IMG/VR virus record: IMGVR_UViG_3300035070_002527
Location: 1 to 32,705 of that record
Length of the DNA stretch: 32,705 nucleotides
Origin: a virus
Strand: one strand, 5' to 3'
Shown in pieces: positions 2,885-32,705 of the stretch. Both the position numbers and the translations under genes were made by a program. Positions within the stretch are counted from its first letter, which is position 1; every line of letters begins with the position of its first letter. The notes under the pieces are model-generated. The model was not told the DNA's origin. It saw only the letters and a program-made list of their open reading frames with translations, and did no database searches.

Positions 2885-4072
2885 ATGGCATATTGCACAA
2901 ACAGAGATTTAAAAGATGTATTCCCCTCAATAGATGAGTTTGATACTAAAACTCCTTTATATGGCTGGGTAGAACTATTCTCACATGGAGGATATAAACT
3001 TTACGAAGCATTTAATGTTGGATTAGTAAGCAATTTATATCAAAATGGTGAAGATTTAACTCCATACAATAAAGTAGAAAATTACTCAGACTCTACTGCT
3101 AATACAGATGAGGCTGTTGATATTATTGAAACAGCTATTGATGTAACTGATGGTTCTGTATTTGGATATGGAGACATTATCAAAATAGATAATGAAAGTA
3201 TGTTAATAACTAATATATCTTCAAATACCTTAACAGTAAAAAGAGGATTTTTAGGCACAACTACAGCTACTCACAATACTGGAGTTGATATTTATATTGG
3301 TGTAGAATGGTCAGAGCCAAAACAATGGTTGTATAGTGCTGGTAATGATTCTGTATTGCTTTATGAGGATAATGCAGTAAATCCTAACGATAATTTAATA
3401 GAATCTGGAGATGATTGGGAAACATTAAGGAGTCGTTACATTGATAATGCAGGAAAGTATTTAGATTCAAGATTAGATGGCAAATTGCCTAGAGAACAAT
3501 TTAAAGACCAAGATGGTAACTACGACTACATTATAGTCAGAACTACAGCTTTATTAGCGTGTAGCTTTTTAATTCGTGCATCTCAACCCACATCTGAAAT
3601 AGCAGATGCTTTATTTGAAGAGTCAGAAAAGAACATACTATCGTTGAATGAAGGAAGTACGAAACTATCTTGGCAAGTAACTGGTGATTCATCTCAAGGA
3701 GTAATTAGAGAAATCTCTGTAAGTGGTAATCTTCGTATTGTAGATACAAGAGGTCAATACCACGATATTTATGATCGTATTGGAGTAAAGATTACAACAG
3801 CAGGAGCTTTAGGAACTGCTAAATACTCTGTATGGTTAAAAGATGGAGATAATTTAGGTGCTGAAAGAATGAATAACAGCGAAGATGCAGACTATGTAGA
3901 TGTTATCAATGGGCAGTATCAAACATTAGCTAGTGGAGTTGATATTCGCTTTGCAGGAGATACAGCAGATACAGCAACTTTAAATGATAAATGGGAAATA
4001 GAGTTTTTTGGAAAAAATGAATCTGTACTAGATGCAGGGATGCCTTTCTCTATAAGGATGTCTCGTAGATAA
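2885..4072 (+). CDS. Head-tail connector/adaptor candidate with extra beta domains
   Basis: The 395-aa product starts YCTNRDLKDVFPSIDEFD. At about residues 185-260 it has a helical block (YIDNAGKYLDSRLDG...YIIVRTTALLACSFLIRA) that resembles DUF1320/gp6-type head-tail adaptors. A beta-rich insert lies between these parts (about 85-140, including GDIIKIDNESMLIT), and the C-terminal 130 residues look like a beta-sandwich. Typical adaptors are only 100-150 aa, so this is an enlarged version. It is first in the tail operon, just before the tail-terminator candidate, which fits a neck role. An AGGAG site precedes the ATG. Confidence 0.6.
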   Translation: MAYCTNRDLKDVFPSIDEFDTKTPLYGWVELFSHGGYKLYEAFNVGLVSNLYQNGEDLTPYNKVENYSDSTANTDEAVDIIETAIDVTDGSVFGYGDIIKIDNESMLITNISSNTLTVKRGFLGTTTATHNTGVDIYIGVEWSEPKQWLYSAGNDSVLLYEDNAVNPNDNLIESGDDWETLRSRYIDNAGKYLDSRLDGKLPREQFKDQDGNYDYIIVRTTALLACSFLIRASQPTSEIADALFEESEKNILSLNEGSTKLSWQVTGDSSQGVIREISVSGNLRIVDTRGQYHDIYDRIGVKITTAGALGTAKYSVWLKDGDNLGAERMNNSEDADYVDVINGQYQTLASGVDIRFAGDTADTATLNDKWEIEFFGKNESVLDAGMPFSIRMSRR

Positions 4073-4506
4073 TGCCTATAACATTTGTTAATATTTGGGA
4101 AACAAAGATACTGGATACAATTCGTTCTTTTTTAAATGCAGAGTTTGCAGGAAGTATTCCAGTATATACAGGAGATTTTAAAGACATGGGTAGCCAATCA
4201 ATTAGGCTTAACCCAGTAGGATCAGATTTAATTGAATACAATGCTACAGCAGAAACAAGAGAATATATTCTGGATGTTTCGTATACTTTTAAAGAAAAAA
4301 CAGTAAAAAAGGATACTTGGGAACATATACTTCGTCAAGTATCACACATAGAAGCTCTCTTCTTTAACAATCAAAATAACATCTTTTTTAATGGAAGATT
4401 CGATACGGCTAGAATTAATGAAAAACAAGAAGCCGAATCTGCTATAGAAGGACTTAATGTTATTAGATGGGAATGGAGAGGGATGTATTTAGGTAACATA
4501 TCTTAA
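4072..4506 (+). CDS. Tail terminator / tail completion protein candidate
   Basis: The 144-aa product has an N-terminal helix (IWETKILDTIRSFLNAEF) and then alternating strands, ending VIRWEWRGMYLGNIS. Size, fold pattern and position between the connector candidate and the tail tube match gpU/HK97 gp10-neck type proteins that cap the tail tube. The ATG overlaps the previous stop (TAATG). No catalytic motif is visible. The assignment depends largely on synteny. Confidence 0.55.
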   Translation: MPITFVNIWETKILDTIRSFLNAEFAGSIPVYTGDFKDMGSQSIRLNPVGSDLIEYNATAETREYILDVSYTFKEKTVKKDTWEHILRQVSHIEALFFNNQNNIFFNGRFDTARINEKQEAESAIEGLNVIRWEWRGMYLGNIS

Positions 4507-19988: not shown

Positions 19989-20010
19989 ATTATCTCCTCT
20001 AGTTAATTTT

Positions 20011-20039
20011 AAATTAAATATACTAAATATAATAGTCAA
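20011..20039 (-). promoter_or_regulatory. Early sigma-70 promoter (TTGACT-N17-TAATTT)
   Basis: On the minus strand, TTGACT (20039-20034), 17 bp and TAATTT (20016-20011) lie 23 bp before ATG 19988. The spacer closely matches that of the promoter at 20416-20388 (both contain TTATATTTAG). Confidence 0.75.
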
Positions 20040-20065
20040 GCTATTTATAAACCCTTTATTTTCCT

Positions 20066-20362
20066 TTATTGTTTAAATGTATGATTTAATATATCGGTTA
20101 TTTTTCTTAGCTTTTTACTTTTTTTCTTATATTTTCTAAATAAATTACTTACTTCATTACTAAGACTATTATTTAATTCATCAAATATATCTAAATCAAT
20201 GTCTCCATAAGTACGTTTTTTGTAATTTTTCATAATAAATGACAATTTATCTTTCTTTTTTTGAATTAGCCTACAATTATCACTTAGTGCTTTAGTTTCT
20301 ATTCTTAACATCTTTTGTTTATAAAATAGCAATTTGAATTGTTGCTCTTCGTTAAATATCAT
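20066..20362 (-). CDS. Lys-rich helical protein, 98 aa
   Basis: The product is a highly charged helical protein with coiled-coil character (MIFNEEQQFKLLFYKQKML...FRKYKKKSKKLRKITDIL). The ATG at 20362 has AGAGG eight bases before it and lies 26 bp after the promoter -10. A longer frame from 20416 would overlap the promoter itself. It appears to be a single-gene unit. No family is recognised. Confidence 0.6.
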   Translation of the reverse strand: MIFNEEQQFKLLFYKQKMLRIETKALSDNCRLIQKKKDKLSFIMKNYKKRTYGDIDLDIFDELNNSLSNEVSNLFRKYKKKSKKLRKITDILNHTFKQ

Positions 20363-20387
20363 ATTATAACCTCTTAATTTGAATTTG

Positions 20388-20416
20388 AAATTAATAACCC
20401 TAAATATAAATGTCAA
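20388..20416 (-). promoter_or_regulatory. Early sigma-70 promoter (TTGACA-N17-TAATTT)
   Basis: On the minus strand, TTGACA (20416-20411), 17 bp and TAATTT (20393-20388) lie 26 bp before ATG 20362. The TGA of the -35 hexamer is the stop codon of the 67-aa gene upstream (20415-20413). Confidence 0.75.
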
Positions 20417-20616
20417 GAGAAATATAAAGGGTTAAATCTACATAAGTAATTATACCTGCCGATCATAGCACTAAAAACTTCAGTTTTACCATCATAGCAT
20501 TTATAAAAACCATCAGTAATTTTTTCAACTTTTATACCATTATTTCTTAAATCTTTTAAGATTCCTTGTGTATTTTTTTTAGTTAAAATTCGTACTTTTA
20601 AAGATAATTCATTCAT
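20413..20616 (-). CDS. Hypothetical protein, 67 aa
   Basis: The basic product (MNELSLKVRILTKKNTQGIL, later FYKCYDGKTEVFSAMIGRY) looks like a small alpha/beta protein. The ATG follows directly after the previous TAA, with AGGGGG upstream. Its stop lies within the -35 of the next promoter. No family is recognised. Confidence 0.6.
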   Translation of the reverse strand: MNELSLKVRILTKKNTQGILKDLRNNGIKVEKITDGFYKCYDGKTEVFSAMIGRYNYLCRFNPLYFS

Positions 20617-20784
20617 TTATAACCCCCTATTTATAACGGCATATAAAGTATTAGGTCTATTATAAACCCTCCATTCAACAGGCTCTAAATTATTTAAAAT
20701 CCACTCTTTACACTCACTAAAACCACCATCAAACCATTTATAATAATGAGTATCATTTTTATTATTGAAAATATAAACTTGCAT
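20617..20784 (-). CDS. Small Trp/Tyr-rich protein, 55 aa
   Basis: The frame reads MQVYIFNNKNDTHYYKWFDG and contains SECKEWILNNLEPVEWRVY. GGAGG with a spacing of about eight bases precedes the ATG, which lies two bases after the previous stop. No family is recognised. Confidence 0.55.
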   Translation of the reverse strand: MQVYIFNNKNDTHYYKWFDGGFSECKEWILNNLEPVEWRVYNRPNTLYAVINRGL

Positions 20785-20785
20785 A

Positions 20786-20959
20786 TTATAAACCCTCCAT
20801 TTCTAAAGCCTGTTCTAAATTACGCCATCCTGTTCTAACTCTTAAAATAGCATTTAGGCTTTCTAAATTATAACCCATTATATTAGTGACTAAGATAATC
20901 TCATCATCAGTAGCAATCCCATTATCCACTAAGTATTCGTATGTTTTTGTTGTATCCAT
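20786..20959 (-). CDS. Small helical protein, 57 aa
   Basis: The frame reads MDTTKTYEYLVDNGIATDDE and continues as two or three short helices. It is the first gene after promoter 21013-20985, 26 bp from the -10, with AAAGGAAAA as ribosome site. The sequence resembles small phage regulators in length, but no helix-turn-helix is clear. Confidence 0.6.
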   Translation of the reverse strand: MDTTKTYEYLVDNGIATDDEIILVTNIMGYNLESLNAILRVRTGWRNLEQALEMEGL

Positions 20960-20984
20960 TGTATTTTCCTTTGTTAGTTAGTTG

Positions 20985-21013
20985 ATATTAAAAACAATTT
21001 TTAAAAATGTCAA
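20985..21013 (-). promoter_or_regulatory. Early sigma-70 promoter (TTGACA-N17-TAATAT) beside tandem repeats
   Basis: On the minus strand, TTGACA (21013-21008), 17 bp and TAATAT (20990-20985) lie 26 bp before ATG 20959. Four 13-bp repeats begin 5 bp upstream of the -35, so this promoter is the one most likely to be controlled. Confidence 0.8.
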
Positions 21014-21018
21014 GCAAA

Positions 21019-21070
21019 ATTATAAACTAAAATTATAAACCCAAAATATAAACCCATATTATAAAAACCA
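21019..21070. repeat. Four tandem 13-bp repeats (iteron-like)
   Basis: Copies begin at 21019, 21032, 21045 and 21058, each exactly 13 bp after the last. The unit is ATTATAAACYAAA, with small changes in the third and fourth copies. They lie in non-coding DNA directly upstream of the -35 of promoter 21013-20985. They may be initiator-binding iterons or operators; an AT-rich stretch follows. Confidence 0.65.
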
Positions 21071-21277
21071 ACTACTAAAATGTACTTATTGAGATTCATT
21101 ATCAATTGTTATTGAGACTCAATCTCATTAAGGTATTTCTTTAAAAATTGCCTAAAATCAGCCTTTTTATTTTTAGGTAAGGTTATGTATACCTAAGCTA
21201 AAAATCTATCGAATTTCGGCTATTTTAAAGCTTTTTAAAGCTAAATTATCAAAAAACTAGTAATTTAAAACAAGATC
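21071..21277. other. AT-rich non-coding control or origin region
   Basis: Apart from the paired dyads (21086-21131), this gap holds dyads TTAGGTA/TACCTAA (21173-21179 with 21190-21196, loop 10) and repeated TTTAAAGCT (about 21223-21251). No open frame with a ribosome site is seen. Position between two early units, with iteron-like repeats beside it, suggests an origin or regulatory region; this is inference. Confidence 0.4.
21086..21131. promoter_or_regulatory. Two operator-like dyads, 23 bp apart
   Basis: TGAGATTCATTATCA (21090-21104) and TGAGACTCAATCTCA (21113-21127) match at 12 of 15 positions and each is a 7-1-7 imperfect palindrome. The identical lead-in TTATTGAGA starts at 21086 and 21109. 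Two matching dyads about two helix turns apart suggest cooperative binding of a dimeric regulator. The first also resembles a Fur site. Confidence 0.55.
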
Positions 21278-21305
21278 AAAAAAAAAGCCCTTAAAAAAGG
21301 GCTTT
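21278..21305 (-). terminator. Intrinsic terminator
   Basis: AAAGCCCTT (21284-21292) pairs with AAGGGCTTT (21297-21305), nine pairs with a four-base loop. On the minus strand it is followed by a run of nine T. It lies just after the 26-aa membrane peptide gene and ends the first early unit. Confidence 0.85.
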
Positions 21306-21308
21306 AAT

Positions 21309-21389
21309 TTAAAAGATTAATCTTATTGCCAGACTTAATAAAAAAATGTAAGTGCAGTAAAATTCAAGAACCTTGAAAAATATTTTCAT
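21309..21389 (-). CDS. 26-aa hydrophobic micropeptide
   Basis: The frame reads MKIFFKVLEFYCTYIFLLSL and ends AIRLIF: one membrane segment after a basic start. It overlaps the stop of the 47-aa gene as ATGA and ends four bases before the terminator stem. Translation is suggested by the coupling; no independent ribosome site is obvious. Confidence 0.4.
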   Translation of the reverse strand: MKIFFKVLEFYCTYIFLLSLAIRLIF

Positions 21390-21529
21390 TGAATCGCCTC
21401 TAAAAAGGTTTTTTTGTTAAAAAGTGGGTTTTCAGCTTCAAAATATTTAATTAAACTTGTTACAAGTTCTTTTTTATTTTTTGTTTCTTTAATCATTTTA
21501 GCAATATTTACAAGATGTTTTTTTGTCAT
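21386..21529 (-). CDS. Small protein, 47 aa
   Basis: The frame reads MTKKHLVNIAKMIKETKNKK and ends NPLFNKKTFLEAIQ. The pattern MTKKH...A..I...and ENP.F....FLEA resembles short proteins I recall from many phages and plasmids, without known function. AAGGAA lies about ten bases before the ATG. Confidence 0.6.
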   Translation of the reverse strand: MTKKHLVNIAKMIKETKNKKELVTSLIKYFEAENPLFNKKTFLEAIQ

Positions 21530-21567
21530 TGTTTTTGATTCCTTTTTAATTAGTTCTTATACCCAAA

Positions 21568-21587
21568 AAGCCCCATTCAAGGGGCTT
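21568..21587 (-). terminator. Intrinsic terminator after the 117-aa gene
   Basis: AAGCCCC (21568-21574) pairs with GGGGCTT (21581-21587) around a six-base loop. On the minus strand a TTTTT run starts at the base of the stem. It lies about 20 bases after the stop of the 117-aa gene. It is weaker than the one at 21278 and may allow read-through into the 47-aa gene. Confidence 0.65.
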
Positions 21588-21607
21588 AAATTGAGTTATT
21601 TGAGGCT

Positions 21608-21961
21608 TTACCCTATGAATTGAGTTGCCCCCCTTGTTAATGCTATTGCTTCCTGTCTAAACAATTTAGCAAGGCTTTTTAATTGGCTTAAATCAAGGTA
21701 GTTTTTTGTACTAAAAACCCATGTGCAATTATCTTCTTTAATTCCGTTCCACTTTCCAGAACCCTCAGAGTTTACGAATATCTCTGAATTATGACTTTCA
21801 ATGAATGAATTTATGGCGGATTGGAAGCCCTTCCATTTATGATTCGGTAATGGTGTTTTATTTACATTTCTACCAATTGTCAATGTGTATGTTTTAGGGC
21901 TTTGATATTGTCCTTTTAAGCCATTTTTGTTTATGTGTTTTATTGTGTTTAAATCGTACAT
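21608..21961 (-). CDS. Hypothetical protein, 117 aa
   Basis: The basic soluble product contains SPKTYTLTIGRNVNKTPLPN and CTWVFSTKNYLDLSQLKSLA, which suggests an alpha/beta fold. AAAGGAAAAT lies before the ATG. It is the last main gene of the first early unit, followed by a terminator. No family is recognised, and no catalytic motif stands out. Confidence 0.65.
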   Translation of the reverse strand: MYDLNTIKHINKNGLKGQYQSPKTYTLTIGRNVNKTPLPNHKWKGFQSAINSFIESHNSEIFVNSEGSGKWNGIKEDNCTWVFSTKNYLDLSQLKSLAKLFRQEAIALTRGATQFIG

Positions 21962-21966
21962 TGTTT

Positions 21967-22149
21967 TTATTTTCCTTTTTTATCTATTATTTGATAAGTT
22001 TCTACCACTTTCTGTAATGTTTTTTTACATTCAATTAGGTATTTTAATTCATTATTTAAGATTTCTTTATGTTTTTTTATCTTTTTTATATTCCCTAATA
22101 CTTCATCTAATTCATATTTTAAAAAGATTATTGAATTTTTATTTTTCAT
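21967..22149 (-). CDS. Coiled-coil protein, 60 aa
   Basis: The product is Lys/Glu/Leu-rich (LKYELDEVLGNIKKIKKHKE) and nearly all helix. AAGGAAAAT precedes the ATG as in its neighbours. It probably oligomerises. No family is recognised. Confidence 0.6.
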   Translation of the reverse strand: MKNKNSIIFLKYELDEVLGNIKKIKKHKEILNNELKYLIECKKTLQKVVETYQIIDKKGK

Positions 22150-22164
22150 TTTTTTATTTTCCTT

Positions 22165-22434
22165 TTATTTATATTCGTTGCGTATGTTGTAATTAAAAGG
22201 TATTGCGTGGATAGTAGCATTTACTTCAGTATCATAATCATCTATCATTTCAACAGCATAATTATACACATCTTTTAATTCTTTACATACTTTACTATAA
22301 CTAACTACTTTAAAATTATTTTCTTCTGCGGTGCGTTTAACATATTCTGAAGCCTCTTCGTATGCCCCTTTTTTATTTCCATATACGCCAAGGATTCCAT
22401 CTTCGCTCCCTGTTACTACATAAACTATTTTCAT
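22165..22434 (-). CDS. Hypothetical alpha/beta protein, 89 aa
   Basis: The product starts with a strand, MKIVYVVTGSEDGILGVYG, and has a helix NKKGAYEEASEYVKRTAEEN, then SYSKVCKELKDVYNYAVEM. The pattern is like a small ferredoxin- or Nudix-sized domain, but no motif is decisive. AAAGGAAAAT precedes the ATG. Confidence 0.65.
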   Translation of the reverse strand: MKIVYVVTGSEDGILGVYGNKKGAYEEASEYVKRTAEENNFKVVSYSKVCKELKDVYNYAVEMIDDYDTEVNATIHAIPFNYNIRNEYK

Positions 22435-22459
22435 TTTATTTTCCTTTTATTTAGTTAAT

Positions 22460-22714
22460 TTAATATGTTATGTTTAATTTATCCATTATTGAATCTATTT
22501 TATCTTGAATTGTTCCTTGTTTGTCTTCTAGCTTATATATTTTGTCATCAATTCTATTAATTCTGTTAATGTATTTAATACTTGAATTATAATTCATTTG
22601 GCTCAATTCTTCGTAAAAAAATCTTTTATTCTCTAACTCCTCAATTTGTTTATATATATTTGAAAACTGAAGCTCTAAAGACTGTCTTTTAATTTCTAAT
22701 TTATTTAAATTCAT
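22460..22714 (-). CDS. Coiled-coil protein, 84 aa, first early gene
   Basis: The product is a long charged helix (MNLNKLEIKRQSLELQFSNI, later INRIDDKIYKLEDKQG), likely a coiled coil. The ATG lies 27 bp after the -10 of the promoter at 22769-22741, making it the first gene of the early arm. AAGGAT is the ribosome site. No family is recognised. Confidence 0.6.
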   Translation of the reverse strand: MNLNKLEIKRQSLELQFSNIYKQIEELENKRFFYEELSQMNYNSSIKYINRINRIDDKIYKLEDKQGTIQDKIDSIMDKLNITY

Positions 22715-22740
22715 AATGTATCCTTATTTTAAGTTGATAA

Positions 22741-22769
22741 AATGTATTACTAATATATTTAAATGTCAA
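22741..22769 (-). promoter_or_regulatory. Early sigma-70 promoter (TTGACA-N17-TACATT)
   Basis: On the minus strand, TTGACA (22769-22764), 17 bp and TACATT (22746-22741) lie 27 bp before ATG 22714. Small dyads (ATGG/CCAT at 22801-22811 and ATCTG/CAGAT at 22810-22823) lie upstream and could be operators. Confidence 0.7.
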
Positions 22770-23193
22770 TAAATATTTAATTTATTTTAATATTTATTTA
22801 ATGGTTGCCATCTGAATCCAGATTAAAACTTTCTATAATAGCTAGTACAAAACTAATATTTATTTTCTGGCATTGTTTTTTAAATTCTTTTTTGGGTTTT
22901 TTGGATTGGTATTTTAAATTATATAACTTTCTACCCCTTATAAAACAAGTATTTTATATTACTTTAATAGGTAGTGATAAGATTCTAATTAATGGGGTGG
23001 GAGGGGATAAAATCTTTAATAAGGTATTCAACAGCCATTCCTCATAAAATAAACGAAAACAAAGTCTTAAATCGGTCTCAGAAAAAAAATTTTGAAAAGA
23101 AAGTCCGATAAAGCTAACGCTTTATTATTGTATATCGTATAGTAGTAATTCTGCCTTATTTGGATTTAGATGCGATAATGGTAATAAAGTCTC
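22770..23193. other. Non-coding gap between the early arm and terS
   Basis: No frame here has both a ribosome site and convincing protein sequence. It holds a G-rich tract (22994-23006: GGGG, GGG and GGGG separated by single bases) and a hairpin ATAAAGC/GCTTTAT with a four-base loop (23108-23125). As it borders the small terminase gene, it is a candidate for a packaging site; this is inference from position. Confidence 0.4.
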
Positions 23194-23223
23194 TTGTACA
23201 AAAGTACCAAATGGTTGTATAAT
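23194..23223 (+). promoter_or_regulatory. Promoter of the small terminase gene
   Basis: TTGTAC (23194-23199) and a perfect TATAAT (23218-23223) are 18 bp apart, 28 bp before the terS ATG. A short palindrome GTAC-AAAA-GTAC overlaps the -35 and might be an operator. Confidence 0.65.
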
Positions 23224-23251
23224 ATACCATAACTTAAAAGGACTATACGAA

Positions 23252-23914
23252 ATGAGTGTAAATCTGCCAACAAACTGGAAACCAGAAAAAGCAAGAGCAA
23301 TTGACATACTTGTCACTAATCCAAGTTGTAAAATTCAAGAAATATCGCAAGAAATAGGGGTATCTAAAAACACAATTCGCAATTGGATGAAAGAACCTGA
23401 ATTTGTAGAGATATACTATCAGAAGTATATGGTTACATTTGGAGCGAAACTGCCTACTGTATTACAGAGTATGATACGAGAAGCAGAGGCTGGTAATGTG
23501 CAAGCTGGTAGATTAGTGTTAGAACACTCAGGTAAACTAATTAAACGAGTAGAAGTAGCAAATAATCAGAGTCCATTTGAAAAGTTTTTAAATAATCAGG
23601 CATCGGATATGCAGGAAATTGACACAATTGATGCAGAAGTCGAAGAGATCGAACCTGAGTTCAAAGTATTGCCTGAACGCCCTGTAGTACCCCCAAAAAA
23701 CGCTTCAAAAGCACAGCAACTCAGGGAACTAAAAAAGAAAGAAGAGAAAAATCGTAAGCGTAGAGAAGCTAGGCATTGGAGAGAACGAGCAGAAGCCGTA
23801 GGGGTGGATAAACCAGAACGAGGTAGACAAACAAAAGCTCAAAGAAAAATGTGGCAGGACAAAGTAGTAGCAAGAGAAAAAGCATTAAATGTTACCCCCT
23901 ATACCGAAAAATAG
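23252..23914 (+). CDS. Terminase small subunit candidate
   Basis: The 220-aa product has an N-terminal helix-turn-helix (residues about 13-48: KARAIDILVTNPSCKIQEIS then GVSKNTIRNWMKEPEF), as in TerS proteins that recognise the packaging site. A helical oligomerisation part (about 65-100, LQSMIREAEAGNVQAGRLVL) follows, then an acidic linker and a Lys/Arg-rich C-terminal helix that may contact TerL or DNA. The NVQAGRLVLEHSGK pattern is common in phBC6A51-type small terminases. It lies on the opposite strand from TerL and about 3.5 kb away. AAAGGA precedes the ATG. Confidence 0.75.
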   Translation: MSVNLPTNWKPEKARAIDILVTNPSCKIQEISQEIGVSKNTIRNWMKEPEFVEIYYQKYMVTFGAKLPTVLQSMIREAEAGNVQAGRLVLEHSGKLIKRVEVANNQSPFEKFLNNQASDMQEIDTIDAEVEEIEPEFKVLPERPVVPPKNASKAQQLRELKKKEEKNRKRREARHWRERAEAVGVDKPERGRQTKAQRKMWQDKVVAREKALNVTPYTEK

Positions 23915-23929
23915 GGTGGGGTATTTTTT
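23895..23929 (+). terminator. Intrinsic terminator overlapping the terS stop codon
   Basis: CCCTAT (23897-23902) pairs with ATAGGG (23911-23916), extended by CC/GG across a one-base bulge, and is followed by TTTTTT (23924-23929). The TAG stop (23912-23914) lies within the stem. Confidence 0.6.
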
Positions 23930-24026
23930 AAAAACTGCCATAGAATGTATTTAAATGCCTATAATTAAATTTTAGGGTACTGAGATTTCCGATACATATA
24001 TATTACATATATATAATAGATATATC

Positions 24027-24194
24027 TTATACACTATGCTGAGATTTTGGCATGGGTAGTTTCAATGCTGTTTTTACAGTAAATGACTTACATTCAGGGC
24101 ATTGTTCTTTTTCAGAATCAAACTTAACAGATACTACTTCCCAAAACCAATTACAGTTTTTACACAAGCATTGCCTAATCTTATATTTTTTCAT
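24027..24194 (-). CDS. Small zinc-ribbon protein, 55 aa
   Basis: The frame reads MKKYKIRQCLCKNCNWFWEV and has CKNC (residues 11-14) and CPEC (32-35), a classic zinc ribbon. It lies at the 3' end of the packaging operon on the minus strand. Such proteins may bind nucleic acid or act as adaptors. The ribosome site is weak. Confidence 0.6.
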   Translation of the reverse strand: MKKYKIRQCLCKNCNWFWEVVSVKFDSEKEQCPECKSFTVKTALKLPMPKSQHSV

Positions 24195-24200
24195 GGCAGT

Positions 24201-24461
24201 TTAACTTTCTCCCCAGATACCTAAATCACCTGAATGTCTAATTAATTCCTCCCATACTTCTATATTTACCTCTGTTTGTGTTTTTTTACTTGTTTTTTGT
24301 ACTGGAGCTATAGTTTTTGCTAAAAATCCTAATATTTCATTATTCATTAAGTTAATTTCTGTAGAATCAACTATTTTATTATCTAGTTCTTTAATTGAAG
24401 ATTCTAGCATTTCCATACATTGCAACAACAACTGTAAGTAGTATTCTTCTGTTTTTTCCAT
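24201..24461 (-). CDS. Hypothetical helical protein, 86 aa
   Basis: The acidic product is mostly helical (MEKTEEYYLQLLLQCMEMLE then INLMNNEILGFLAKTIAPVQ). It lies between the gp10-like gene and the zinc-ribbon gene in the packaging operon. It may be a small head or neck accessory. No family is recognised. Confidence 0.6.
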   Translation of the reverse strand: MEKTEEYYLQLLLQCMEMLESSIKELDNKIVDSTEINLMNNEILGFLAKTIAPVQKTSKKTQTEVNIEVWEELIRHSGDLGIWGES

Positions 24462-24470
24462 CTTTAATCC

Positions 24471-24899
24471 TTATTTTCTAAGTGCTTTTTTTATATCTTC
24501 TGAAAATTGCTTATCTAATTTGTCTTTATTTTTAGCTGTAGTAGCTATAAATGGTCTTGCAACAGCAAATACACCGAATGGAGGCTGAAAGCCATCATTT
24601 TGTTGCTTTCCATACTCTTTCATGGATAAAATATTGTCTTTGCTTTTGATACTGTTATATAAAGCACCAGTTTCAAATAAAGGTTCTACGCTATTATTGC
24701 CTTTTGCTTTTCTCAATGCTAAGGTACTACTTCTTAAGGGGGTTAATGCCTTTCCATCTACCCCAATGCCATTATCTATATTATTTTTTGATCCTTCTTC
24801 AGCACCTTTTGCATAATTAGAAGTATATTTTTTAATTGCTTTTGGCAATTCTCTTGCAAGTTTTCCAAAATCAAAATTAACTTTTACTTTAATTTCCAT
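24471..24899 (-). CDS. Virion morphogenesis protein, HK97 gp10-like
   Basis: The 142-aa product has the family marks: an N-terminal helix (FGKLARELPKAIKKYTSNYA), DGKALTPL in the middle and ETGALYNSIK followed by GVFAVARPFIATT. HK97 gp10-like proteins act in head-tail joining or tail completion. The ATG overlaps the portal stop by 11 bases. It is odd that this gene is on the minus strand with portal and TerL, while the other neck and tail genes are on the plus strand. Confidence 0.75.
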   Translation of the reverse strand: MEIKVKVNFDFGKLARELPKAIKKYTSNYAKGAEEGSKNNIDNGIGVDGKALTPLRSSTLALRKAKGNNSVEPLFETGALYNSIKSKDNILSMKEYGKQQNDGFQPPFGVFAVARPFIATTAKNKDKLDKQFSEDIKKALRK

Positions 24900-26169
24900 T
24901 TGGTTGCTCTATTACTTCCATATCATTTTGATCTTTGTTAGTATCTATAATATTTTGTGCTTGATCTAAAGTAATATCTTTATTATCCCTAACCATAATC
25001 TTAGCTCTGGTTGTAAGATTGTTTTTAAGATCAAATTCATCTTTAAGTATCTGGTCTTGAACTGTTTTAGGGTATTCTACTTCTTGAAAATCAACTCCAA
25101 ATTCTTCTGGTAGTGCTATTCCATTATATTCTGCTATAACACGTTCTACTCTGTAAAAATCTTGCTCATAAAGTCTCCATAAAGCAATATCATCATAATA
25201 ATCTTCTTTACGCTCCATATCTTTAATCATCAAAGATATACCACTAGGAACTTCACCACCACTTTCTGCCCATTGCATCCACAAGTGATTATTTGATGCT
25301 ACAAGCTCTATTTGAAATTTTATATTGTTAATAGCCTCTTCTATGTTACCATTTGGACTTGTAATATTGTAGGCACCTTCTTCACCCATGTCTAGTATAG
25401 TATTTGACCCTGCTCTAAGCATACTTTGATCTGCTCTTAATCCAGTAACCCAAGGCTGTCCAAACATATTAAATCTCATACCTAAGTTCATTTCAGTTAA
25501 GGCAATATTTACTTGTTCATTACAATTTACAATATCAGATGCTCCTTCAACATAAAAAGAATCAATTTGATCTTCTCTGTGTGTAAATACGAATGGCAAA
25601 ATTCCATACGGATTCTCCATTTCTTCTATCATTTTACCTTCTTCATTTAGTATTCCGTAACTATCAGCATCCCAATATTCCCATTGAAGATTATCTGAGT
25701 TAGCTAAATCTGCTGTACTATTTAGTAAAGGATAAACAATTGCCTCTGGGACAAAAGGATCATCACCAAAATAGGTTTCAAAATAGTAAATAGGTCGATA
25801 ATCAAATGATTCCCCTCTCCAATGAACACGATTAGCAACCGTTCCTAATAACCTAGTCATTCTTTCAGAATGTTTCATTCTAACATCTTTTGTAGGTGTT
25901 AAAAGTTCATAACGCTCAGTCATATTGCCTAAATTTCTTTTAGCACCTAAGCTGTATATTCTGCTAATCTTATTAATAAATTTTCTAGTAAAATTAGTTA
26001 AACTAGGTGGTATTTCTGAAAAAGCATCACCACTAAAGTAATGACTAATATAACTTCCTGTAGATGTACTGGAGTAATAATCAAGATATTTCCGTATCTC
26101 ATTTCTCCTATCGTGAGACATCATAAGTTTAGTTTCAAGTAATTTATCTTTCATCATTTGATCTATCAT
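24889..26169 (-). CDS. Portal protein
   Basis: The 426-aa product forms the ring through which DNA enters the head. It is adjacent to TerL, and the regions expected of portals are present: an N-terminal helical part, YYFETYFGDDPF and GILPFVFTHRED in the wing, NCNEQVNIALTEMNLG in the long stem helices and KTVQDQILKDEFDLKNNLTT near the C-terminus. Length is normal for siphovirus portals. It starts as ATGA with the TerL stop. The family is inferred from order and these blocks. Confidence 0.85.
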   Translation of the reverse strand: MIDQMMKDKLLETKLMMSHDRRNEIRKYLDYYSSTSTGSYISHYFSGDAFSEIPPSLTNFTRKFINKISRIYSLGAKRNLGNMTERYELLTPTKDVRMKHSERMTRLLGTVANRVHWRGESFDYRPIYYFETYFGDDPFVPEAIVYPLLNSTADLANSDNLQWEYWDADSYGILNEEGKMIEEMENPYGILPFVFTHREDQIDSFYVEGASDIVNCNEQVNIALTEMNLGMRFNMFGQPWVTGLRADQSMLRAGSNTILDMGEEGAYNITSPNGNIEEAINNIKFQIELVASNNHLWMQWAESGGEVPSGISLMIKDMERKEDYYDDIALWRLYEQDFYRVERVIAEYNGIALPEEFGVDFQEVEYPKTVQDQILKDEFDLKNNLTTRAKIMVRDNKDITLDQAQNIIDTNKDQNDMEVIEQPNGN

Positions 26170-27479
26170 CTTTGAATCCTTTTCATTTCTGTGTTTTTCA
26201 TTGGAAATCTATTAATAATAAAATACCGAAAGGCATCATTGCCATGATCGTGGTATCCATCCTTAATAGGTTCTTCTTTTATAGGCTTTCCATCTTCGCT
26301 TTCAGGATACCTATACTCTTCAAAATCTTCTATTACGTCTAGACATCGTTTATCAACATGGATTCTTCTAATGCCGTTAGCACTTTCAAAGAAACCTCTT
26401 GTGTATGCAACACTAGCTACAATATTCCTACTCATTCTGTCTCTAGTTGATATTACTCTAATTCCACTACGCCTAAATATTTCCATATCTCCTGCACCAC
26501 TCTGCCCTTGAATATTAGCACCAGCAGGATCACCATAATAACTAGCTACAGGATAGCCTTTAGTTTTAATCATTTTAATTAAATCTTCTGTTTTAACATT
26601 TTGTTTATGTAAAATTGAATCAAAAATTCTAATATGTTCAACATTATCTTCCCAATAAGTTTGACAAAACATTACAGCAGGCATACGATAACCAAAGTCA
26701 ATTGTACAATAAGTAGGTAAGTTAGGATTGTATGGAAAATCTCCTACGTCAAGATCACGATGGAAATCCCAAACCTTACCTTCGAATACTGAGAACTCTG
26801 CCCCAAACTCTTGACCAAATAGTTCTTTTGACATATTTCTTTTTCTTTCTATAATGGCAGGATCATCTAATCCTTGTGGAAATTCATATTGATTTACCCA
26901 TGATGGTGATGAATGACTTACCCACAATGGATCAGTAGCACCTAATTTAAACAAATCATATATCCAATTTCTACCTTCTGGTGTTGTAATAAAAATAACT
27001 TTTCCTTTTCTTCCTGCTACTGTTGGAGATAAATACATATCCCAAATCTTTTTATTCATTTTGGCTACCTCATCAATAACCAAAAGATCACAACCTTCAC
27101 CTACAAGAGAATCTGGATTATCTGCCGACATTCCCTCAACAGTAGTACCCCATTTAAAACGAATGTACATATCTTTTTCAGATGCTTTGTCTACATCTTC
27201 ACCATGACCAATAACCATTCGTTGCCAAACCTCTCTAAAGATTAGTCTAGCTTTTCTATAGGACATACCTACAAGCCAAATACGCTTATTAGGTTGAGAT
27301 GCAACAAATGTTGCTTCCATAGCACTTGCCCAAGTTTTACCAAATCTTCTACCACATACCACAACTTGAAATCTGGCATGTTGTTTTTTTGGGTAATGAA
27401 GTGCTAATTGCCCATTATGTGGTTGATACCCTAAGTAGTCAAACCATTTTCTTTTAAATTCGTAATTTTTTTCTTGCAT
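26166..27479 (-). CDS. terL: Terminase large subunit
   Basis: The 437-aa product is the packaging motor. The ATPase part has Walker A CGRRFGKT (42-49), Walker B LLVIDE (132-137) and the coupling motif ITTP (164-167). The nuclease part has TIDFGY with Asp261 and a C-terminal DGYHDHGNDAFRY that supplies further metal ligands. Length is typical of complete TerL. It is the first gene of a minus-strand operon with portal and gp10-like genes, whereas the small subunit is on the plus strand. Confidence 0.93.
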   Translation of the reverse strand: MQEKNYEFKRKWFDYLGYQPHNGQLALHYPKKQHARFQVVVCGRRFGKTWASAMEATFVASQPNKRIWLVGMSYRKARLIFREVWQRMVIGHGEDVDKASEKDMYIRFKWGTTVEGMSADNPDSLVGEGCDLLVIDEVAKMNKKIWDMYLSPTVAGRKGKVIFITTPEGRNWIYDLFKLGATDPLWVSHSSPSWVNQYEFPQGLDDPAIIERKRNMSKELFGQEFGAEFSVFEGKVWDFHRDLDVGDFPYNPNLPTYCTIDFGYRMPAVMFCQTYWEDNVEHIRIFDSILHKQNVKTEDLIKMIKTKGYPVASYYGDPAGANIQGQSGAGDMEIFRRSGIRVISTRDRMSRNIVASVAYTRGFFESANGIRRIHVDKRCLDVIEDFEEYRYPESEDGKPIKEEPIKDGYHDHGNDAFRYFIINRFPMKNTEMKRIQR

Positions 27480-27565
27480 TAGATTACTTTTATAACTTAC
27501 ATTATACTATCTATTTAATGCAAGGTTTATTCTTGCAAATTAACCAACTCACTGAAGAGGTAAAA
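27480..27565. promoter_or_regulatory. Divergent regulatory gap between terL and the scaffold gene
   Basis: A minus-strand TATAAT (27506-27501) and a plus-strand TATACT (27503-27508) overlap, as in back-to-back promoters, but -35 matches are poor. A dyad TGCAAG/CTTGCA (27519-27524 with 27532-27537, loop 7) lies beside them. A phage late activator might be needed here. Confidence 0.4.
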
Positions 27566-28069
27566 ATGTCAGAAGAACAAACCATCGAGCCAGATGTAAA
27601 ACAGGAATCCGTCACACAAGACGCTCACAATGTACCATTAACAAGGCTTAACGAAGTAATAACTGAACGTAATGAATTACGAGATCAGATGAAAGCCTTT
27701 GAAACTAAAGAGGAAGAACAGAGAAGAGCAAAGTTACAAGAAGAAGAAAAATGGCAAGAGTTAAACTCTGAGCTAATGAAAGAAGTAGAATCCTACAAAG
27801 GTTATAAGGAAAAGTGGGAAGATATGGATAGCAGACTTCGTGAAACAGCTCTAGCTAGACTTCCTGAATCTAAAAGAGAAAAATTTGCTAGTGTTGATAC
27901 TGATATACTTCTTAACATCGTTGAAGAATTTTCTGAAGTAGAAAAGCAAAACCCACCAGATAGAAAAGGAACTGTACCATCAGGTACTCCTGCTGATTGG
28001 GTTGCTATGCCAGATGAACAACGAAGAAGTAATTGGCAAGCAATACTAGATTCATACATTAAAAGGTAA
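27566..28069 (+). CDS. Capsid scaffold protein candidate
   Basis: The 167-aa product is very acidic and charged, with a coiled coil at about residues 22-85 (RNELRDQMKAFETKEEEQRR) and a helical C-terminus. It lies just before the major capsid gene, the usual place of scaffolds. I chose ATG 27566 because GAGG lies just upstream; an in-frame ATG at 27518 would cross the control region. Confidence 0.75.
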   Translation: MSEEQTIEPDVKQESVTQDAHNVPLTRLNEVITERNELRDQMKAFETKEEEQRRAKLQEEEKWQELNSELMKEVESYKGYKEKWEDMDSRLRETALARLPESKREKFASVDTDILLNIVEEFSEVEKQNPPDRKGTVPSGTPADWVAMPDEQRRSNWQAILDSYIKR

Positions 28070-28074
28070 AATAA

Positions 28075-28971
28075 ATGGCAAAACATTATCAAGGTAACCC
28101 AGTTACCACTACAACAGATCAGCATTTTATTCCAGAAATCTGGGCAGATGGTATTTATAAATTCTTTGAAAGAAAAAGTGTATTCAGAGGATTAGTAGAT
28201 GACTACTCAGCATTAGTGGGATCAAAAGGCTATGGAGATGCAATTAATATTCCAGAAATGAGTTTAATTAGTGCTTCAGATAAATCAGCAGGATCAGATG
28301 TATCCTATGATGCAACTGCAACTACTACAACTCAACTAGCAATTAATAAGCACAAGTATGTCGCAAAGTTATTTGAAGATATAGCTTTAATTCAAAGTGA
28401 GGCTGATTTAGTAGCTAAGTATTCAAGAATGATGGGTGAAGCTCTTGCTCGTCAAGTTGATGCCGATATTTGGGGTGAGTTAGATGGATTAAATGACTCT
28501 CAAGCATTATCTGCTGATGATACATTAACAGCCTCTGTATTTGAGTCTGCTCTTGCTACTTTAGGTGAGGCTGATATTCCTTACATGGATGGTGAATGTG
28601 CTATGGTTGTCAATCCAACTTTATTTGCAGATATACTTAACCCATCTGCTGGTATAGCACAGTATTTCATTCGTAATGATGCTGTCGGTGAAGGAAATCG
28701 TGGACTAAGATCAGGAATGGTTGGATCATTATACGGAATTGACGTATATATGAGCAATACAGTTGCAAGTGCTGGTACAAGTTCTACAATCCCAGGTGCA
28801 ATCTTTCATAAATCAGCTTGTGTTTTTGCTTCACAACAAGAAGTAAGAGTGCAATCAGAATATTCCATTGATGCTTTAGGTACAAAAGTTGTATCTGATT
28901 TATTATATGGAGTTAAATTGATTGATGATTCTGATAATAAGAAAGGTGTTAAGTTTACTAACGTAGACTAA
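28075..28971 (+). CDS. Major capsid protein, HK97-fold type
   Basis: The 298-aa product begins with a flexible part and then has the usual order: FIPEIWADGIYKFFERKSVF (N-arm), GDAINIPEM, AINKHKYVAKLFEDIALIQS and the long helix QVDADIWGELDGLN (spine). MVVNPTLFADIL follows (A domain), then GIDVYMSNTV. This matches HK97-fold capsid proteins of short, unprocessed type. It follows the scaffold candidate, with AAGG before the ATG. A strong hairpin follows the stop. Fold assignment is from pattern recognition. Confidence 0.87.
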   Translation: MAKHYQGNPVTTTTDQHFIPEIWADGIYKFFERKSVFRGLVDDYSALVGSKGYGDAINIPEMSLISASDKSAGSDVSYDATATTTTQLAINKHKYVAKLFEDIALIQSEADLVAKYSRMMGEALARQVDADIWGELDGLNDSQALSADDTLTASVFESALATLGEADIPYMDGECAMVVNPTLFADILNPSAGIAQYFIRNDAVGEGNRGLRSGMVGSLYGIDVYMSNTVASAGTSSTIPGAIFHKSACVFASQQEVRVQSEYSIDALGTKVVSDLLYGVKLIDDSDNKKGVKFTNVD

Positions 28972-28986
28972 TAACCTAGTTTAAAT

Positions 28987-29011
28987 TGGGGGTAGGTTTT
29001 TCCTGCCCCCA
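28987..29011 (+). terminator. GC-rich hairpin after the major capsid gene
   Basis: GGGGGTAGG (28988-28996) pairs with CCTGCCCCC (29002-29010), nine pairs including one G-T, plus a T-A pair, with a loop of five T. No T-run follows, so partial termination or mRNA protection of the capsid transcript is more likely than full stop. Confidence 0.5.
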
Positions 29012-29027
29012 TTAAATTGGAGATTTT

Positions 29028-29228
29028 ATGCAATATTGGTTTAAAAATGGAAGAATAGAAAGACTTGAGGATGAATTACTTAAAAGGCATCCTGAAAAAT
29101 TAGACGAGTTAAAAGCTAAAGGCTATTTTCGTATAATGAGTGAGAACGACTATTCTCCGTTTAAGAAAAAGACTGTAAAGTCAGTTGCAAAAAAACTTGT
29201 TAAAAAAGTGAAAAAGAAAAAGAAATAA
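29028..29228 (+). CDS. Small basic head-region protein, 66 aa
   Basis: The product starts MQYWFKNGRIERLEDELLKR and ends in a long Lys-rich tail (KKLVKKVKKKKK). GGAG lies before the ATG. It follows the capsid gene; the basic tail could contact DNA or a negatively charged surface. No family is recognised. Confidence 0.6.
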   Translation: MQYWFKNGRIERLEDELLKRHPEKLDELKAKGYFRIMSENDYSPFKKKTVKSVAKKLVKKVKKKKK

Positions 29229-29282
29229 AGACTAAGACGATCTCATTCACGCTTTAGTCATTAGCTTAGAGAGGAAGAAAAA

Positions 29283-29627
29283 ATGGCAGACCTACATACA
29301 TATTCAGTACAAGAAGCATTAAACACAACAACTGGTGGAGGTTGGACAGTTGCAAGTGTTGGAACTGCTGGAAGTTCAGCAGATGTCGCTAATACAATTC
29401 ATAAATCATTATTAAGTAATACTGGAACACTAGGTATTTATAGTGCAGTAGAAATTTATTTTAACTTTACAACAGCAGAAGCTAATGTAAATGCAAGTAA
29501 TGATTTAATTATTCCAAAGAATACAATGGTATTTATTACAGTTCCTAGAGGACTAGGAAACACAATTTATTTTAACTACAATTCTACCAGTACAACAACT
29601 GGTTCAGTTAGATTAGTGGAGTGCTAG
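29283..29627 (+). CDS. Structural protein candidate, 114 aa
   Basis: The product is rich in Thr, Ser, Ala and Asn with beta pattern (YSVQEALNTTTGGGWTVASV and IIPKNTMVFITVPRG), like a head decoration or fibre-base protein. GAGAGGAAG is the ribosome site. It is followed without a gap by the tail-fibre gene. The role is inferred from composition and place. Confidence 0.6.
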   Translation: MADLHTYSVQEALNTTTGGGWTVASVGTAGSSADVANTIHKSLLSNTGTLGIYSAVEIYFNFTTAEANVNASNDLIIPKNTMVFITVPRGLGNTIYFNYNSTSTTTGSVRLVEC

Positions 29628-32600
29628 ATGCAGAGTTCTATGATTAAATCTATTACTGAGGACTTTGGTAATGGAGGAACAATAGATGGTGACCTTACTA
29701 TATCAGGAGATTTACAAGTAAGTGGAGGTGGTTCACTTAGCTTTGATGAGATAGTTCAAGGTACACAAGTAATTGACGTAACCAATACAGAAGCCTTATT
29801 AGTTCGCAAGAATGATGATGGTGGAGATGTCTTTATTGTAGATACTACTAATTCACGAATAGGTATAAATTCTACGCCAAGTAGAACATTTCAAGTGGAT
29901 GGAACTGCTAGTGCTACAACTGCCACTGGTTATTTTTATACAAATGCAATTCATACTGGTGTAGATACTCAATCAGTTGTTTCTATTCGTTCTGATAATG
30001 CTAGTTCAACTGGAAATGTACTTCATGTACAAGGCGATGGAACTGGCAATCTACTTACTTTAAGCAAAGATGGTTCAGATAAATTAACTGTTACTCACGA
30101 AGGTAACGTAGGTATCGGAACTGCATCTCCAACTTCTAAACTATCTGTTAGTGCTGGAAGAGGTGCTAACACTGGGTTGGAAATATTAGATAGTGCTGAT
30201 TCTAATAATAAAAGAATTGATTTAAGATTAGATGCTGATGGTGATGGATACCTCAGTTTAGTTGATGCTAGTGAAACTACTAAAGTTCAATTATACTCAA
30301 ATGGTGTTTCTTATTTTAATGGTGGCAACGTAGGTATAGGAGTTACATCTCCAACACACAATTTAAATGTATACAATGGTAGTGGTGCATCAAACATGAC
30401 AATTGGTAAATATGCTTCAGGCAAAACAGTTGCTCTTCTTGGCACGAGTGCAGATACCTCTGGTTATTTTCAAATACAATCTTATGCTAGTCAAGGCTCT
30501 ACGTTTGGCAATATAGTATTGAATGCTCAAGGTGGAAACGTAGGTATCGGAACTACATCTCCAACAAGGCAACTCACTTTGGCTGGAGCTGGTTCTGCTA
30601 TAAAAATTGATTCAAGTGATAATGCTTACATTGAAATTGATAGAGGTGCATCTAGTGATGTAGGTCAATTAAAGTTTATGACTGGTGGTTCAGCAAAATG
30701 GTATGCTGGTATGGCTGATAGTGGTTCGACTGGTTTTGATGGTACTGAATTTTTTATTGGTGAAGGAAGTGGTGGAGCAAGTGATGCTCATTTAGTAATA
30801 GATGCCTCAGGTAATGTAGGTATAGGAACAACTTCTCCATTACAAGGTCAATCAACACCAATTTCAAATGTAAAGCTTGATGTTCTTGGTAATCAAATGC
30901 TTTCAAATCTATCTACTACTAATACAGACCAATCAAAGTTATTCTTTTTTAGGTCTGATGGTGCTGTATCCTCTCAAGGTGTTGTCCCCGATGGTTTAAA
31001 AATGGGTGCTATTGAATGGGATGCTTTGACTTCAGGTGATAATAATAACTCTATAGCTTCTGCACGAATTGAAACAGAAGCAAGTAACACTTGGAGTAGT
31101 GCTTCAGTGCGAAACGCTGATATAACATTTAGCACAATTGGTGCAAATTCATTAACTGAAAAAATGAGGATAGACAATTCAGGTAATGTAGGTATAGGAA
31201 CTGCAAGTCCAACCACCAAACTTACTGTTTTGGGAAGTATGGATGATAATATTATTAAATTTGGAGCTGGTTCTGCGCAAAATATTGCTCTTGGTGTTAC
31301 AAATGATAGGGATGCGACCAGAGTTGATTTCTTTCTTGCTACAGAATATGGAGCAGAATCATGGTCAAAGAGGGTAACTGTTACAAATCAAGGTAAGGTA
31401 GGCATTGGAACTACTTCTCCATCAGGTATTTTATCAATCTTTAGAAATGATTCAAGCACAGTTGGTACTAATGATGTAGTAATTGAAAATGATGGAAGTG
31501 GTGACGCTAGTTTAAAATTTAGCTTAACTGGTGCAACAGATTGGTATGCTTATGTAGATAATTCAGACTCAGATAAATTTAAAATACGAAGAAGTACAAC
31601 AGACCACTTTAGTATTGATGAGTCAGGCAACGCTACATTTTCTGGTAATGTACAAGTTAAAAATTCAGGATTTGTTTTTTCTGCTGGTGCTATAACTATT
31701 CAATCTGGAAGTAGTACAAATGTAGTATTAGATGCTGGAGCTGGTGCAGATGAATTTACGCTTTCAGATTCAGCTTTAAATATTACAGTTCCAACCACAT
31801 TTTCTGGTAATGTAACAAGTAATGGTAATATACTTTCTCAAGGTGCATCTGCTCCAAGTATAAGTGTATTAGATACTACTAATAATGCATCAATTCAGAT
31901 GAGAGCATTAGATACTGAAGTAAGATTTGGCTCAACATCTAATCATCCAGTTAAAATTGGTACAAATGATAGTTATGATGTTCTTGTTTTGGGGACAGAC
32001 AAATCAGCCACATTTGGTGGTGATATAACAGTTTCTTCTGCAACAGATACCAAGCCTATTTTAAAATTAGAACAAACTGGTAATAATGTAAATGGTGGTC
32101 AATTTATTTTTCTTACAAGTGGTACTGCAAACGATAATGACCTTTCAGGTGTAATAAGATTTAAAGGAATGAACGATGCTGGAACGCCTGAAGAAATTGA
32201 ATATGCCACGATTTATGCAAAAAATACAGATGTGTCAGATGGTTCAGAAGATGGAGAACTACACTTTAGAACAATGAGTGCTGGTTCACTAGATTCAAGG
32301 CTCACACTTAGTTCTTCTAACGCCACATTTTCTGGAAGTATTAACACCCAAGATATTACAGCATATAATATGATAACTATTGAAAGTGCTGATATTAGTA
32401 ATGGTGAAAATAATGGATTGAGATTAATAAACACAAGTGGTACAGACCATTATTGGCATATTACTAATGGACAAACTGGAGTAAGTAATGAAAATTTTAC
32501 AATTAGAGATGGTACAAATAACAGAGATATTGTAGTTTTAGAAACATCTTCAGGAAACGCTACTTTTTACAATAGAATAATATTAGGTGGTGGAATAACA

Positions 32601-32705
32601 TTTCCAGCAAGTCAAAATGCAAGCTCAAATGCCAATACTTTAGATGATTACGAGGAAGGTACTTGGACACCAACTTATGCTTGTAGTAGTGGTTCTTTTA
32701 ATACA
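29628..32705 (+). CDS. Tail fibre with GNVGIGT.SP repeats (3' partial)
   Basis: The frame begins at ATG 29628, just after the stop before it, and stays open for 1026 codons to the edge. It carries six repeats of G(N/K)VGIG(T/V).SP at residues 159, 233, 303, 395, 519 and 589, and one degenerate copy near residue 77. Further on there are several ATFSG/ATFGG units. The last residues, LDDYEEGTWTPTY, are a common marine-phage fibre motif before a receptor-binding end. The fibre is likely trimeric and beta-rich. The 3' end and the true tip lie outside the window. Confidence 0.85.
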   Translation, partial: MQSSMIKSITEDFGNGGTIDGDLTISGDLQVSGGGSLSFDEIVQGTQVIDVTNTEALLVRKNDDGGDVFIVDTTNSRIGINSTPSRTFQVDGTASATTATGYFYTNAIHTGVDTQSVVSIRSDNASSTGNVLHVQGDGTGNLLTLSKDGSDKLTVTHEGNVGIGTASPTSKLSVSAGRGANTGLEILDSADSNNKRIDLRLDADGDGYLSLVDASETTKVQLYSNGVSYFNGGNVGIGVTSPTHNLNVYNGSGASNMTIGKYASGKTVALLGTSADTSGYFQIQSYASQGSTFGNIVLNAQGGNVGIGTTSPTRQLTLAGAGSAIKIDSSDNAYIEIDRGASSDVGQLKFMTGGSAKWYAGMADSGSTGFDGTEFFIGEGSGGASDAHLVIDASGNVGIGTTSPLQGQSTPISNVKLDVLGNQMLSNLSTTNTDQSKLFFFRSDGAVSSQGVVPDGLKMGAIEWDALTSGDNNNSIASARIETEASNTWSSASVRNADITFSTIGANSLTEKMRIDNSGNVGIGTASPTTKLTVLGSMDDNIIKFGAGSAQNIALGVTNDRDATRVDFFLATEYGAESWSKRVTVTNQGKVGIGTTSPSGILSIFRNDSSTVGTNDVVIENDGSGDASLKFSLTGATDWYAYVDNSDSDKFKIRRSTTDHFSIDESGNATFSGNVQVKNSGFVFSAGAITIQSGSSTNVVLDAGAGADEFTLSDSALNITVPTTFSGNVTSNGNILSQGASAPSISVLDTTNNASIQMRALDTEVRFGSTSNHPVKIGTNDSYDVLVLGTDKSATFGGDITVSSATDTKPILKLEQTGNNVNGGQFIFLTSGTANDNDLSGVIRFKGMNDAGTPEEIEYATIYAKNTDVSDGSEDGELHFRTMSAGSLDSRLTLSSSNATFSGSINTQDITAYNMITIESADISNGENNGLRLINTSGTDHYWHITNGQTGVSNENFTIRDGTNNRDIVVLETSSGNATFYNRIILGGGITFPASQNASSNANTLDDYEEGTWTPTYACSSGSFNT

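Follow-up and report, generated by a model that had tools for sequence, protein, structure and literature searches.

We propose that the centre of the head module of this virus, comprising the genes for TerL, portal, neck and a small conserved protein, was probably inverted once, in place, in an ancestor of a large group of uncultured marine phages, and that the gap between TerL and scaffold would now serve as a divergent late control region. The window, that is, the whole stretch of DNA analyzed here, is a virus record of 32,705 bp (GC 0.32), in which a megablast search with positions 22000-32000 against 50,697 phage records yielded no match. The initial annotation had assigned TerS to the plus strand, TerL, portal and a gp10-like gene to the minus strand, and scaffold and capsid again to the plus strand; re-reading of the open reading frame (ORF) positions bears out this assignment (Table 1), with the gp10-like gene probably encoding the neck1/tail-completion protein. 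Reading from the early arm, TerS is followed by five minus-strand ORFs (Zn-ribbon-like, small gene, neck, portal and TerL) and then by scaffold, and TerS stands alone on the plus strand, with a minus-strand block on either side. The left edge originally given for the block, 24027, is the stop of the extra Zn-ribbon-like ORF. Elsewhere, the left end of the window encodes endolysin, tape-measure and tail-like genes and its right end scaffold, capsid and tail fibre, all on the plus strand, whereas the genes for NinB, NinG, a primase-helicase and a replication initiator occupy the minus strand within 11.6-18.2 kb. Given that nine near-complete relatives keep an identical circular order of detected genes despite contig ends that differ in position, the two plus-strand parts of the window can be regarded as a single arm.

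Table 1. Features of the head region of the window, with the evidence for each
Feature	Position	Strand	Evidence or description
Candidate TerS promoter	23195-23235	+	TGTACA-17-TATAAT, then ATACCATAACTT; 10/12 consensus matches
TerS (terminase small subunit)	23252-23914	+	phrog_2538, E 2e-11 (PHROGs)
56-aa Zn-ribbon-like ORF, last in the inverted block	24027-24197	-	Zn_ribbon_8, E 4e-4, under the curated cut-off
Small conserved gene, block tail	24201-24461	-	Likely counterpart between neck and scaffold in colinear relatives
Neck1/tail-completion protein	24471-24899	-	phrog_26, E 2e-6 (PHROGs)
Portal	24889-26169	-	Structure model and matches to solved portals
TerL (terminase large subunit), first gene of the inverted block	26166-27479	-	phrog_2, E 1e-42; Terminase_6N, E 2e-9
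Near-palindromic core of the candidate control region	27473-27524		CTTGCATTA over the TerL start codon ... TAATGCAAG
TerL/scaffold intergenic region, 86 bp, candidate divergent promoter	27480-27565		Conservation
Candidate scaffold-leader hairpin (TGCAAG-n7-CTTGCA)	27519-27537	+	MFE -9.9 (z -1.5)
Scaffold	27566-28069	+	Place before capsid, sequence character (by eye), conserved SD and ATG
Major capsid protein	28075-28971	+	phrog_267, E 3e-44 (PHROGs)

Three of these assignments call for comment. The portal of the window has no match in PHROGs or Pfam, but an AlphaFold model built with colinear homologues (mean pLDDT 78) retrieves phage portals and connectors as the best matches in PDB (best E 5e-10, TM-score about 0.45-0.55), and the L196 homologue of this protein matches the phrog_145 portal (E 5e-4); a first model, with near relatives alone as input, reached a pLDDT of 38 and was unusable. 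The scaffold likewise has no match in PHROGs, and its colinear homologue in L177 shows a weak match to phrog_4866 head scaffolding (E 0.014). Its start is most likely the conserved ATG at 27566, which follows AGAGGT, rather than the mechanical start at 27518. The small gene is recognizable by its C-terminus, which, as judged by eye, reads FMGI(A/S), FMAI(A/S) or FMGVA in the colinear copies, FMGIA, as in those copies, in L187 and L196, two deep divergent phages, and W-G-x-S/A in most core members printed, L158 being different. In 45 contigs, we also observed matches to a cysteine-bearing protein of 154-156 aa (175 aa in L196) that is absent from the window and has no family match in our search; we take it to resemble Mu gpF-like proteins. 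All 41 assessable contigs have a further ORF, at least 70 aa long, nested whole inside this outer gene; in the 25 printed cases, the nested ORF is identifiable as the small block gene, read in the +1 frame and beginning 22-28 nt past the outer start, the distance being 19 nt in L196 (for example, L017:3795-4262 and 3820-4080 on the plus strand).

The sample consists of 258 distinct IMG/VR contigs recovered by homology scans, after removal of repeat-contig loci. Among the matches listed, 143 contigs have TerL on the strand opposite to scaffold or capsid, 59 that belong to other lineages are colinear, and 56 are without a call; of the 113 contigs in which both TerS and TerL were called, 102 have the two genes on opposite strands and 11 on the same strand, with no call in 145 of the 258. 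Because the contigs come from homology scans, three of which retained the best 80 loci each, these counts are not frequencies in nature. Contigs from the capsid queries were opposite in 43 of 54 cases, with nine lacking a call and L177 and L190 colinear by TerL; L173, also a capsid-query contig, is colinear by its portal. A query with the L196 portal returned only the contig of L196 itself, no cultured relative was matched by the portal of the window, of L177 or of L190, and a search of genome contigs for a host gave a single match, at 32% over part of TerL. The content of the block and its margins shows some variation among divergent phages: by eye, a Zn-ribbon-like ORF occupies the same place in 9 of the 12 divergent loci printed and is absent from L187, L189 and L196. 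In one divergent phage, TerS and the inverted block are separated by a gene for a small heat-shock protein, Hsp20 (E 1e-19; L158:1437-1892, minus strand).

The initial annotation had held that an order common to all relatives, as a stable ancestral design, would argue against an inversion. Such uniformity does hold for all callable near relatives, that is, contigs from the window-TerL or L072-portal queries, 100 of 111 of which are opposite among the matches listed, the other 11 giving no call, but it breaks down in distant lineages, which are colinear. The latter were reached using an alternative capsid type as the query, given that some divergent phages carry this type, and their portals were then used to find more. 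This led to L190, with TerL 52% and portal 43% identical to those of the window, and to L177, with a portal 29% identical; the groups of both have homologous TerL, portal, scaffold and capsid genes, and neck where detected, with the head genes on one strand. In the L190 group, the genes run TerS, TerL, portal, neck, scaffold and capsid wherever all were detected, with a small gene ending in FMGIS and variants, as judged by eye, between neck and scaffold. The order in the window is that of the L190 group with the TerL-portal-neck-small gene block reversed in place. Moreover, three colinear contigs of this group, one of them read over 39.5 of 40.5 kb, have a two-arm layout like that of the window except for the block, in which the head and tail genes share one strand and almost all other genes are on the opposite strand, which implies that it was the block that turned and not its surroundings. 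A tape-measure homologue was found in seven of the eight colinear contigs searched, in all seven on the head-gene strand. The primase-helicase of the window, used as a query, matched 10 of 10 core relatives and was not found in any of the eight colinear contigs or in L196.

Two further observations concern these contigs. In several divergent phages (L012, L073, L158 and others), TerL is 82-94% identical to that of the window whereas the capsid is only 20-29% identical; this alternative capsid, in L012, is 90-91% identical to that of the colinear phages L177, L173 and L180, and the joint seemingly lies inside the scaffold gene, the first residues of which are clade-specific (by eye). Furthermore, boxes resembling TTAACGT are seen by eye before TerS in the colinear L216, L221-L223 and L225 and before scaffold in L225 and L226, and are possibly the late operator of that colinear lineage.

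With respect to the direction of change, a tree of TerL and portal (50 rows, with the L177 group as root and partial portals in two of the divergent rows, L192 and L195) joins 24 of 24 divergent rows by one branch (94/90, not starred), nests them among colinear lineages and needs one change; the colinear order is thus most likely ancestral, and one inversion suffices. Together with the internal order of the block, which the colinear sisters keep, this lends good support to the earlier suggestion that the block was inverted as a unit. In the tree of TerL alone (62 rows, one short row left out), which needs two changes, a starred clade unites 29 of the 30 divergent rows, and the remaining one, L196, shares an unresolved fork with colinear rows. 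This separation, the lack of mirrored arms in L196 and its two extra plus-strand ORFs after TerS would fit two origins of the divergent order, one in the L196 lineage and one in the rest; we nevertheless consider this unlikely, given that the combined tree joins L196, a long branch, with the others and that identical genes are inverted in the identical place. It is still less probable that the divergent order is old and that the colinear relatives are re-inversions. The constancy of the divergent order among near relatives would agree with such a history, but the L177 outgroup and HTVC111P are colinear, and, since three colinear lineages (the L190 group, L225-L226 and L227-L228) branch outside the divergent clade in the rooted tree, a single change would not suffice.

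Under the single inversion that we favour, a marine-phage ancestor would have carried TerS, TerL, portal, neck, small gene, scaffold, capsid and tail genes in this order on one strand. The segment from TerL to the small gene would then have flipped once, in situ, between TerS and scaffold, with the order kept since. The gap 5' of scaffold, already present in the colinear relatives, would thereby have come to lie 5' of TerL too, and could function as a divergent late control region, driving the motor, portal and neck genes leftward and scaffold, capsid and tail genes rightward, with TerS left as a separate unit that probably has its own promoter. Recombination scars, which it had been suggested might mark the block ends, were sought as inverted repeats in 23850-27700 and not found. 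This interval contains 55 inverted-repeat pairs, with complementarity of 73-93% among the 25 longest. The two sides of the block are linked by I1 and I7, both imperfect pairs, which were rejected as scars, being inside coding sequence and off the block ends.

A divergent layout of this kind is already known from phage P2 (NC_001895) and is, accordingly, less unusual than the initial annotation held. In P2, as in the window, TerL and portal (P and Q, from pP) are leftward and scaffold and capsid (O and N, from pO, with M and further genes) are rightward, and both P2 promoters share an annotated activator site in the control region between TerL and scaffold. In the core clade, the corresponding gap has the conserved mirrored element. 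The P2 TerS gene (M), however, lies 3' of the capsid gene, whereas that of the window starts at 23252, beyond the inverted block. In a report on two Pseudoalteromonas phages, an inverted TerL-portal pair is counted as a P2-like feature (PMC10612066). The similar layout and shared activator site of P2 could prompt the view that the block is a head module imported from P2-like phages (Peduoviridae) and not inverted at all. This we consider highly improbable: TerL and portal of the window are 51-68% and 43-69% identical, respectively, to those of the deep divergent phages and the colinear L190, and hhalign against single P2 sequences gave probabilities of 0.14 and 0.34% for gpP and gpQ, so that no homology is detected, in a comparison of few-sequence profiles with single proteins that is compatible with distant homology. 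Furthermore, the clade of the window, unlike P2 in this comparison, has known colinear sisters, which indicates a divergent layout of its own origin, apart from P2. HTVC111P (MN698245), a Pelagibacter phage of similar size with TerL 28.5% and capsid 30% identical to those of the window and otherwise a single weak match (to the ORF at 22460, E 0.004), has TerL, portal, scaffold and capsid on one strand, as in a standard colinear head module, and the window does not. Finally, an assembly artefact or chimeric contig can be regarded as refuted by the occurrence of the same order in 143 distinct contigs, with agreement of all nine near-complete relatives.

As for the control of the inverted block, the initial annotation had postulated a promoter of its own near 27500. 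Anatomy favours this part of the proposal, because TerL can be transcribed only from the gap or by readthrough on the strand antisense to scaffold, which makes a leftward TerL promoter in the 86-bp gap (a length that presumes the scaffold start at 27566) likely. The 'early polarity' ascribed to the block holds for strand orientation only; early timing is unsupported, and TerS sits between the block and the early genes. Across 118 unique rows (of 132) of the core clade, mean column homozygosity in the gap is 0.81, a value somewhat inflated by AT content and alignment, compared to 0.51 at four-fold sites of TerL. The near-palindromic core has 23-nt arms, 74% complementary and 6 nt apart. Mirrored CTTGCATT/ATGCAAG arms, 43-45 bp apart, or about four helical turns, and with the CTTGCATT arm overlying the TerL start codon, are present in 59 of 59 distinct core gap sequences (135 contigs); the pair, a pattern picked post hoc, occurs once in the window and in none of 100 shuffles. 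The element is established for the core clade only, which we separate from deep members at 82% TerL identity, given that the deep members do not keep the exact pair of arms. Below this cut are eight contigs (six distinct), where the exact pair occurs only in L106, itself of the core type, and not in L187, L189, L191, L195 and L196; by eye, the arms are seen in altered form in L187, L191 and L195 and not in L189 or L196.

Other signals in the gap are less distinctive. Matches to a -10-like element are loose (42 and 39 of the 59 distinct core sequences), a perfect 9-nt inverted repeat appears in 256 of 5000 shuffles of the AT-rich gap, and a dyad of at least 6 arises in 17% of shuffles. In the candidate leader hairpin, 93% of cells are paired, against at most 68% when the pairing is slid, with no two-sided change, and the shuffle control is uninformative as one arm hardly varies; these data point weakly to a hairpin in the scaffold mRNA leader. 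We infer the inversion event, the divergent promoter activity, its late timing and the control by an arm-bound protein. A more specific scenario, which we advance tentatively and with less than even confidence, is that the core clade evolved, after the inversion, a single near-palindromic switch in which overlapping promoters would fire both operons together under one arm-bound regulator. According to Warman et al. (2026, PMC12825309), pseudo-symmetrical bidirectional promoters are ubiquitous in prokaryotes; these share with the window a near-palindromic region between divergent genes, the symmetry in the window being imperfect, at 74%.

Upstream of TerS, an ATACCAT-type motif is found in the window and in nine of nine near-complete relatives, and none was seen by eye in L158, L178, L187 and L189. 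Promoter-like matches in 20000-32705 are rarer than in shuffles (44 compared to a mean of 64). A promoter motif common to TerS and scaffold was considered and rejected: this post hoc pattern occurs twice in the window, where 0.33 matches are expected and two are reached by 3 of 100 shuffles, and it precedes scaffold in no more than 4 of the 10 genomes. A candidate TerS terminator lies at about 23893-23930 in the window; we do not claim it for the clade because our scan detects a terminator at only 5 of the 80 distinct 3' ends of divergent TerS genes, compared to 0 of 9 colinear ends and 13 of 3000 random segments. The 537 bp 5' of TerS (22715-23251) contain a G-rich patch, GGGGTGGGAGGGGAT from 22994, which might be a candidate packaging site.

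The order TerS-TerL-portal-scaffold-capsid is commonly taken as the backbone of tailed phages and is used for annotation and synteny. Here, an inversion of the centre of the head module can be placed on a tree, colinear and inverted relatives occur in one collection, and the inverted form is present in many metagenome contigs. In the literature searched for such an inversion, chiefly open-access, this clade is not evidently described. The layout, known from P2, occurs here on proteins without detected homology to those of P2, providing a second, apparently independent divergent arrangement of motor and shell genes. These phages offer a testable setting for how motor and shell genes are kept in step without a common transcript. 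If the single switch is real, the divergent head control of P2 would have been re-invented in these phages, and the clade, along with its colinear and deep divergent relatives, would show the stepwise flip and rewiring of a packaging operon.
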